Shown here in pieces: positions 5,157 through 22,730 of a stretch of 32,177 bases of DNA. Each line of letters begins with the position of its first letter. Position 1 is the stretch's first letter. The notes under the pieces were generated by a model that worked only from the letters and a program-made list of their open reading frames with translations, did no database searches and had not been told where the DNA came from. The translations under genes and the position numbers were made by a program. Location of the stretch: contig DAOUZA010000007.1 of assembly GCA_030665785.1 (NCBI GenBank), positions 1 to 32,177 on the forward strand. Reading direction: 5' to 3'. The stretch is from Dehalococcoidia bacterium. Its GTDB lineage: Bacteria; Chloroflexota; Dehalococcoidia; GIF9; AB-539-J10.

Positions 5157-5696
5157 TCACTCCTCAGTTGAACCTGCTATAGCTACCCCGTCCTCACCAT
5201 CTACTTCCTTGACATGCACCTCGACTTTCTCCGCCCGCGAGGTTGGTATATTCTTGCCCACGTAGTCAGCTCGGACAGGAAGCTCACGGTGACCACGGTC
5301 AATAAGAACAGCCAGTTGTATAGCGCTAGGGCGGCCTAAATCGATGACAGCATCCATAGCTGCCCGAATGCTTCTCCCGGTATAAAGGACATCATCTACC
5401 AAGACCACTTGTTTATCATTTACATCAACGGGAACATTGGTATGCTTAGCCGGTTTTGACTCCAGGAAAGAAATGTCGTCTCGATAAGAGTTAATATCCA
5501 GAACACCAACAGGAACCCGAACACCTTCAAAATCCTGGATTGTATCGGCTAATCGGTGCGCCAACGGCACCCCTCTAGTCCACATACCCACGATAACGAG
5601 ATTCTCAGCGCCCCTGTTCTTCTCTACAATTTCGTGGGCAACGCGCACCAAAGCCCGCCCTACATCCTCCGAGGTCATGAGGAGCTTTTGGTGCAT
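5157..5696 (-). CDS. pyrR: Bifunctional pyr operon regulator / uracil phosphoribosyltransferase
   Basis: [27 protein letters not shown]..., PRPP motif [23 protein letters not shown] at 5696 follows AGGAGG; the longer ORF start at 5726 lies inside the terminator. Confidence 0.94.
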
Positions 5697-5703
5697 TAAA
5701 AAA

Positions 5704-5731
5704 GCCTCCTGCCACAGAACTGGCAAGAGGC
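5704..5731 (-). terminator. Intrinsic terminator (attenuator) in pyrR leader
   Basis: Minus-strand GCCTCTTGCCA-gttctg-TGGCAGGAGGC, 11-bp stem with one mismatch, followed by TTTTTT (5698-5703). Confidence 0.9.
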
Positions 5732-5768
5732 TTCAATAGATTTCGCTAACCTTTGCGTTATCATGTTT

Positions 5769-5803
5769 CCCCTTACCAGCCTCTCCGGACTGATTTAAAG
5801 GCT
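5769..5803 (-). promoter_or_regulatory. PyrR RNA-binding loop (anti-antiterminator)
   Basis: Leader GCCTTTAAATCAGTCCGGAGAGGCTGGTAAGG: AUCAG/CUGGU and CCUU/AAGG stems around UCCGGAGAGG, matching the known PyrR loop consensus (UCCaGAGAGG). AGAGGCU is also complementary to AGCCUCU of the terminator 5' arm. Confidence 0.88.
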
Positions 5804-5809
5804 TCAATT

Positions 5810-21376: not shown

Positions 21377-21454
21377 CAGGAGCTGGAGAATAAAGCAGGG
21401 AGCTGCTTATGCTGCCCCTTCGAGCTAAGAAAATGCTATTAAAGGAGGCTTAAT

Positions 21455-21853
21455 GTGCACCTAATTATTGATGGCTATTCTAATAGCAAAGAAATTCTTC
21501 AAGATGAGCAATTCCTCACCAACTGGCTAGAGAATTATCCATCAAAAATTGGCATGACTAAAATTTCACCTCCCTACGTGGTTACATACGCAGGACCGAA
21601 TTCCGAGGATTGGGGGATATCAGGATTTATCTTCATCGCCGAGAGTCATATCAGCGTTCATACCTTTGTCGAACAAAGTTATGTCAACATAGACCTCTTT
21701 TCATGCAAGGACTTCGATGTTGAAAAAGCAATAAGGGATTTTCAAGATGAATTCCAATTAGTCAAGTCAAGAACTTGCTTGATTGATAGAGAGTGGTCGG
21801 GAATGGAACCCACCGCTGCAGTCACCTCTGGCTTCACTTACCATGAAAGATAA
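21455..21853 (+). CDS. SpeD-family pyruvoyl-dependent decarboxylase (AdoMetDC family; substrate uncertain)
   Basis: Self-cleavage motif ESHISVHTF and DLFSCKD; GTG start after AAAGGAGG. Confidence 0.85.
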   Translation: MHLIIDGYSNSKEILQDEQFLTNWLENYPSKIGMTKISPPYVVTYAGPNSEDWGISGFIFIAESHISVHTFVEQSYVNIDLFSCKDFDVEKAIRDFQDEFQLVKSRTCLIDREWSGMEPTAAVTSGFTYHER

Positions 21854-22730
21854 CAGGCAGCCATTCCTGTCACCAAGAGTCTTTGCCGGATTAGAGCCAC
21901 CATATTCTGAGTTAAAATCAGCCAAAGTAGTTATTTTGCCCGTTCCCTATGACAGCACCACCGAATGGAGAAGTGGAACCCGCCACGGTCCACAGAGCAT
22001 AATTGACTCCTCTCAATACCTGGAGCTTTATGACCTCGAACTAGAGCGTGAGATATACAAAGTTGGCATTCATACCCTACCTGAAGTAGAGCCAATGATG
22101 AACAGCCCTGAAGAAATGGTCAACAGGGTTTACCAGATAACCAGCAAATTAATCCATGAAGACAAGCTTGTGGCAATGCTTGGCGGGGAACACTCGCTTA
22201 CCCTGGGAACAGTTAGAGCTTTTAAGGAGGCATTCCCAAAGCTTTCCGTGCTACAGCTAGATGCTCATGCTGACCTCCGTGATGAATATTTGGGCACCAA
22301 ATATAGTCACGCTTGTGTCATGCGCCGTATCCATGAACTCTGCCCCACTGTTCAGGTTGGCATCCGTAGCCTCAGCCAGGAGGAAAAGCAATTCATAACT
22401 CAGAACAAGCTGAGTGTTTTTTACATGCCCGCGTTAACAGAAGATAAAAACTTCGAAAAAGAGATGTTATCTTCACTTAGTGACGATGTTTATGTAACCA
22501 TTGACGTAGATGCCTTTGACCCCTCAATCATGCCCGCGGTAGGCATGCCCGAGCCTGACGGCCTACAGTGGCAACAAGTCTTACGGATAATTAAGCTAAT
22601 AGCAGCCCACAGGCACATAGTTGGCTTTGACTTGATGGAGTTTTGTCCCCAAGAAGGCCCACATTCCTGTGCCTTTTTATTGGCTAAACTGGCCTACAAG
22701 TTTATTGGCTACATCGTGCCGCCAGAGTGA
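21843..22730 (+). CDS. speB: Agmatinase / ureohydrolase
   Basis: MLGGEHSLTLG, LQLDAHADLRDEY, SHACVMRRI, TIDVDAFDPSIMPAVGMPEPDG. ATG 21843 overlaps the speD-like gene. Confidence 0.92.
   Translation: MKDNRQPFLSPRVFAGLEPPYSELKSAKVVILPVPYDSTTEWRSGTRHGPQSIIDSSQYLELYDLELEREIYKVGIHTLPEVEPMMNSPEEMVNRVYQITSKLIHEDKLVAMLGGEHSLTLGTVRAFKEAFPKLSVLQLDAHADLRDEYLGTKYSHACVMRRIHELCPTVQVGIRSLSQEEKQFITQNKLSVFYMPALTEDKNFEKEMLSSLSDDVYVTIDVDAFDPSIMPAVGMPEPDGLQWQQVLRIIKLIAAHRHIVGFDLMEFCPQEGPHSCAFLLAKLAYKFIGYIVPPE

Follow-up and report, generated by a model that had tools for sequence, protein, structure and literature searches.

The speD2–speB locus

The stretch of DNA analysed here (the window, 32,177 nt from a Dehalococcoidia bacterium) carries a speD homologue, speD2, that overlaps the start of an agmatinase gene, speB. 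The features of the locus are listed below.

21441..21448, + strand: AAAGGAGG, probable ribosome-binding site of speD2, read from the sequence
21455..21853, + strand: speD2, SpeD homologue and candidate pyruvoyl-dependent L-arginine decarboxylase (SpeDA), based on the PF02675 match, a separate clade, and the model fold
21641..21646, + strand: Glu63–Ser64, predicted self-cleavage site yielding the pyruvoyl group (equivalent to Ser63 of T. maritima), invariant in 47 of 47 SpeD2-clade rows
21659..21673, + strand: HTFVE where AdoMet decarboxylase (AdoMetDC) has HTWPE, with His69 kept, Trp replaced by Phe, and Pro by Val (sequence and alignment)
21704..21706, + strand: Cys84, catalytic-type cysteine (equivalent to Cys83 of T. 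maritima), invariant in the alignment
21843..21853, + strand: 11-nt overlap of the speD2 end and the speB start, from the coordinates
21843..22730, + strand: speB, agmatinase (TIGR01230, 243.5 bits, cut-off 174.3; motifs GGEHS, DAHAD, and TIDVDAFDP)

The speD2 ORF starts with GTG and encodes 132 amino acids, including AESHISVHTFVE and DLFSCKD. Its product matched the Pfam family AdoMet_dc (PF02675) with 85.1 bits (cut-off 25) and remained under the cut-off of the NCBI AdoMetDC equivalog TIGR03330 (68.8 versus 75.65 bits). SpeB was identified as an agmatinase both by its score above the equivalog cut-off and by the presence of the ureohydrolase motifs. The speD2 gene is under purifying selection (dN/dS of 0.19 between the window and the same-genus genome G001), and speB and speD1 (described below) behaved alike. 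An earlier note on this DNA had described a SpeD-family gene with an intact self-cleavage motif, DLFSCKD, and HTFVE instead of HTWPE, which overlapped speB by 11 nt in a window rich in arginine genes and lacking both speE and a conventional arginine decarboxylase (ADC). These observations were all borne out: argJ, argB, argD, argG, argH, argS, and argC are present, and profile searches of the window found neither speE nor a classical ADC (the ORF at 231–1067 had no Pfam match at E 1e-10). At 5696–5805 on the minus strand, the window also contains a PyrR-binding RNA element (RF00515, 58.9 bits), which precedes a run of phosphoribosyltransferase, carbamoyltransferase, dihydroorotase-like, and carA genes.

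Polyamine genes elsewhere in the genome

The assembly (1.03 Mb, 94.8% complete) was searched by protein family. Two SpeD homologues were found, SpeD2 in the window and SpeD1 on contig C11, the latter with an intact HTWPE motif and a score of 142.9 bits on the AdoMetDC equivalog. On C11, speD1 overlaps by 4 nt a speE gene, the product of which was confirmed as an aminopropyltransferase/spermidine synthase; the absence of speE from the window therefore does not extend to the genome. Neither PF01276 (the ADC, ornithine [ODC], and lysine decarboxylases of the aspartate-aminotransferase fold) nor PF01862 (the archaeal pyruvoyl ADC) was represented in the genome, and the sole PF02784 protein was rejected as an ADC because it scored as the diaminopimelate decarboxylase LysA (476.9 bits).

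The earlier note had advised a genome search for speE and speA, and had held that speE plus a separate ADC elsewhere would count against its proposal. The first part of that combination is present, since speE lies beside its own canonical speD on C11, but the second is not, as the three ADC/ODC families yielded only LysA. With a canonical speD beside speE and only LysA among these families, the window SpeD appears to be a second, substrate-shifted copy, and SpeD2 is the only candidate for the putrescine-precursor step among the families searched (PF02784, PF01276, and PF01862). Its product would feed the synthesis of spermidine by SpeD1 and SpeE. The genome thus encodes two SpeD proteins, one SpeE, no SpeA or SpeC, and SpeB, which is the kind of signature that has been used to find SpeDA (PMC10407285).

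Residues, phylogeny, and predicted fold of SpeD2

We aligned 103 homologues, including 41 AdoMetDC-type rows and 47 SpeD2-clade rows, and numbered the positions according to the T. maritima AdoMetDC. Ser63, His68, and Cys83 were invariant in the AdoMetDC-type rows and in the SpeD2 clade (47 of 47). The AdoMetDC-type rows all had Trp70, Pro71, and Glu72 (41 of 41) and nearly always Phe49-x-Pro51, whereas the SpeD2 clade had Phe or Tyr at position 70 in all 47 rows, with Trp70 in none, and Asp or Glu at position 51, again in 47 of 47. Position 71 of the clade was occupied by Val, Ala, or, in four rows, Pro; although this proline was lost in 43 of the 47 rows, its loss alone was rejected as a definition of the clade because the four outer members keep it. 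The clade was further characterized by Asn at position 77 (Ala in AdoMetDC), Ser at position 82, and a loop before Gly53 that is longer by six residues. The loss of Phe49 and Trp70, which hold the adenine ring in AdoMetDC structures, fits a loss of AdoMet binding in SpeD2, and the acidic loop could plausibly bind the guanidinium group. The Trp70-to-Phe and Ala77-to-Asn changes and the acidic residue at position 51 are testable candidates for substrate determinants; for ADC, the lost proline was the main difference proposed before.

The putative pyruvoyl-dependent L-ornithine decarboxylases (SpeDC) of the phylum (L151, L155, and L156) carried Gln, Thr, Phe, and Tyr in the published order, and that of L151 came from a speD1–speD2–speE cluster resembling the cluster of Anaerolinea. 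At the positions inferred from these three putative SpeDC proteins, the window SpeD2 had none of the four marks.

In a phylogenetic tree of 68 rows and 137 columns, for which the bootstrap had not fully settled, the AdoMetDC clade had support values of 100/99, and the SpeD2 clade, which included a phage and other Chloroflexota, was separated from it with support values of 93/86. The SpeDC proteins and the pelagiphage ADC HTVC201P (AXH71538, L174) fell outside the SpeD2 clade on long branches; HTVC201P was the only characterized SpeDA in the tree. The structure of SpeD2 predicted with AlphaFold (pLDDT 87.5) most closely matched the T. maritima AdoMetDC in the PDB (TM 0.69), and the prozyme structure 5tvm was also among the matches.

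Distribution and gene order in related genomes

SpeD2 and SpeB were tallied in 61 genomes from the same genus, family, or order: 39 encoded both, 18 neither, three SpeD2 only, and one SpeB only. Because of their kinship, the genomes do not count as 61 independent observations. The exceptions included G055, with a truncated speB beside speD2, and G003 (65% complete), with a 47-residue piece of SpeB. The other two, G005 and G019, belong to one genus (g3) and retain SpeD2 (L070 1725–2093 and L071 4984–5352); neither SpeB nor agmatine deiminase was found in them. In this genus, Lys replaces the acidic-loop Glu at position 50, and speD2 has a weaker ribosome-binding site. No PF01276 protein scored above the cut-off in any of the 61 genomes, and PF02784 proteins of about 527 amino acids in some relatives were rejected as SpeA or ODC, being LysA-like and without the GPxCDxxD motif.

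The order thiC–(cinA)–speD2–speB–(greA) was maintained throughout the order, in tens of related genomes, and in most of them the end of speD2 and the start of speB were a few bases apart or overlapped by 1, 4, 8, or 11 nt. The recurrence of the pair in the same gene order in tens of genomes, together with the purifying selection, indicates that the linkage is not attributable to chance. Judged from sequence alone, an ORF resembling a site-2 (M50) protease with a CBS-like part directly follows speB at L040 4994–6112 and L140 4284–5471, and a similar ORF appears to follow speD2 directly at L063 5346–6449.

ODC-family genes at the position of the pair

Genus g14 (G016, 99% complete, and G026) has kept the canonical speD–speE (L010 and L011), and both SpeD2 and SpeB were absent from the two genomes. 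Between thiC and greA, G016 has a pyridoxal phosphate (PLP) decarboxylase gene (L176 1495–2868). Its product is not LysA (184.6 bits versus a cut-off of 297.9) and carries the ODC-like motif GPSCDSFD; among solved structures, human ODC and the lysine/ornithine decarboxylases 2plj and 5gjm are its best matches. In G026, the first part of the same gene lies after thiC, where the contig ends (L184 2–817). In G051, which belongs to a different family of the order, the interval from greA to cinA contains a gene for a decarboxylase with 44% identity and the motif GPTCDSMD, followed by a speE-like gene, both inverted onto the opposite strand (L177 1700–3635).

In two lineages, then, an ODC-family gene sits where speD2–speB would be, and the distribution suggests that the pair was replaced in each of them independently. 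From their family, the replacing decarboxylases would act on ornithine. These two cases resemble a natural replacement experiment. The occupation of the site by an ODC-family gene fits a speD2–speB pair with putrescine as its joint product; the persistence of the canonical SpeD in these lineages argues against SpeD2 being an AdoMetDC, and the joint loss of speB and speD2 speaks against an ODC function for SpeD2 on its own.

Homologues in other Chloroflexota, phages, and archaea

A scan of genome contigs for SpeD2 homologues returned matches almost only from Dehalococcoidia and other Chloroflexota. In G064, a distant genome from another Chloroflexota family, speD1–speE–speD2–speB are consecutive (L152), and at L140, L153, L159, and L160, speB adjoins the SpeD2 gene or lies within about 1 kb of it. 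Microcystis phage MaAM05 (MW495066) encodes speD1–speD2–speE–speB (L149 2477–5255), apparently a set leading from arginine to spermidine.

Several more isolated homologues were observed. A SpeD2-clade gene with HTFVE on a phage contig (L147 1364–1720, IMGVR_UViG_3300009529_000826) shares 4 nt with the gene for the terminase large subunit. A 735-kb uncultured phage (LR756501) encodes a SpeD2-like protein with HTFPI (L148 3977–4354; 52% identity over 70% of the window protein), and neither speB nor speE is located near its gene. Another divergent group of SpeD proteins, in Chloroflexota family f31 (L158, L162, L163, and L166), has HAWPE and a cleavage site that reads AQSH, with speB adjacent in L163 and L166; this is a candidate for a further SpeDA group. 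Two divergent SpeD genes, one with HTFAR, lie on a single short contig of an Aenigmatarchaeota archaeon (L141 2088–2444 and 2989–3408).

Proposed function and alternative explanations

The proposal of the earlier note that a SpeD-derived ADC and SpeB form a two-gene unit is supported by the linkage, the co-occurrence, the presence of a second, canonical SpeD, and the residues of the predicted pocket. SpeD2 is very likely a pyruvoyl-dependent ADC (SpeDA) encoded beside an agmatinase, and the speD2–speB pair probably constitutes a putrescine module leading from arginine through agmatine and putrescine to SpeE. SpeD2 would be made as a proenzyme and cleave itself between Glu63 and Ser64 to form the pyruvoyl cofactor. 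L-Arginine, the presumed substrate, would then be bound as a Schiff base and decarboxylated to agmatine, which SpeB would hydrolyse to putrescine and urea, if the flux runs in this direction. The putrescine would be used by SpeE, with decarboxylated AdoMet supplied by SpeD1, encoded beside speE on C11. Across this order of uncultured Dehalococcoidia, a probable SpeD-derived ADC has thus been retained, tied to the synthesis of spermidine.

The assignment of SpeD2 as an ADC carries the combined confidence of two downstream routes, because it is shared by a Thermus-type route in which SpeE converts agmatine to N1-aminopropylagmatine, from which SpeB removes urea to give spermidine, bypassing putrescine. 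Of 18 bacterial spermidine synthases tested, 17 aminopropylated agmatine, and this route has been proposed as the default where an ADC is present (PMC11107197); the occurrence of the four genes together in L152 is also in its favour. However, an ODC-family gene holds the position of the pair in two lineages that keep the canonical SpeD, and as an ODC supplies putrescine, SpeE must be able to use putrescine there. SpeB also scores as an ordinary agmatinase, although this model would not be expected to tell the two substrates apart. We consider the bypass of putrescine rather unlikely, though the most likely of the alternatives to the putrescine module.

The substrate is not safely readable from sequence within the SpeD family; the SpeD of Sinorhizobium phage phiN3, for example, groups with ODCs yet is an AdoMetDC. 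Two observations speak against the ADC assignment, namely the genus g3 SpeD2 without SpeB or agmatine deiminase and the proline kept by the four outer clade members. The first of these would suit a SpeDC with SpeB as an incidental neighbour, as would the ODC-family genes found elsewhere at the same position and the fact that SpeDC enzymes are common and known in Chloroflexota (Anaerolinea thermophila; PMC10407285). This seems improbable, given that SpeD2 has no SpeDC mark and does not group with the putative SpeDC in the tree, and that SpeB is joined to SpeD2 and absent where SpeD2 is absent. It is more improbable still that SpeD2 is an ordinary paralogue acting as a second AdoMetDC: the Pfam match and the fold are those of AdoMetDC, but SpeD2 falls below the equivalog cut-off that SpeD1 far exceeds, Trp70 and Phe49 are lost in the whole clade, and the genome already has a canonical speD–speE. 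Inactive AdoMetDC paralogues exist in trypanosomes, and this precedent would allow SpeD2 to be inactive by itself and to regulate SpeD1 in the manner of a prozyme; the chance of this is slight in the extreme, as Ser63, His68, and Cys83 are invariant across the clade and, in this order, the gene is linked to speB rather than to speD1–speE.

If SpeD2 is an ADC, as we favour, the Chloroflexota SpeD2 clade may represent a separate and independent emergence of ADC from AdoMetDC. It would then have a pocket of its own (Phe at 70, Asn at 77, and the acidic loop at 50–51) and serve the synthesis of spermidine rather than homospermidine; phages would share it, and in two lineages PLP ornithine decarboxylases would later have taken its place at the locus. 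We offer this wider scenario only tentatively.

Comparison with known systems

All the anomalous SpeD proteins clustered with SpeB or AguA/AguB that have been assayed decarboxylated arginine only (Li et al. 2023, PMC10407285). Like these SpeDA proteins, the window SpeD2 has intact self-cleavage Ser, His, and Cys residues, a clustered speB, and a genome without SpeA and SpeC. It has also lost a proline (Val in the window SpeD2), provided that the proline referred to there is, as we take it, that of HTWPE. Unlike most published SpeDA, the genes of which occur with speY for homospermidine, SpeD2 is associated here with spermidine through the canonical SpeD1 and SpeE. The main text of PMC10407285 names no SpeDA from Dehalococcoidia or other Chloroflexota, and the literature searched, which covered few subscription papers, contained no paper joining Dehalococcoidia, spermidine, and arginine decarboxylase; thermospermine synthases of Dehalococcoidia were characterized in 2025 (PMC12803844). 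As SpeD homologues are annotated as AdoMetDC by default, genomes of this kind seem to encode one step twice and to lack the first.

The SpeDC of Anaerolinea thermophila (PMC10407285) is similarly a second, substrate-shifted SpeD in a member of the Chloroflexota with a canonical SpeD and SpeE, but the window SpeD2 differs from it in lacking the SpeDC marks and in its separate branch in the tree. The SpeD of pelagiphage HTVC201P decarboxylates arginine and is not an AdoMetDC (PMC9992855); it is likewise a SpeD homologue, but it belongs to a phage, lies far off in the tree on a long branch, and has an HSWDE pocket. SpeD2 shares its fold and catalytic residues with the class 1b AdoMetDC of T. maritima (1tlu), from which it differs in the loss of Phe49, Trp70, and Pro71 and in an insertion of six residues, with an acidic pair, ahead of Gly53.

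Vampirovibrio chlorellavorus has a cluster of speE, speB, and two speD genes; its SpeD2 has been proven to be an ADC and its SpeD1 is the AdoMetDC (PMC10407285). This matching gene set is the closest experimental precedent. The kind of enzyme has been known since 2023, and what is added here is the Dehalococcoidia lineage, the cases in which an ODC-family gene occupies the position of the pair, and the residue contrast with AdoMetDC.
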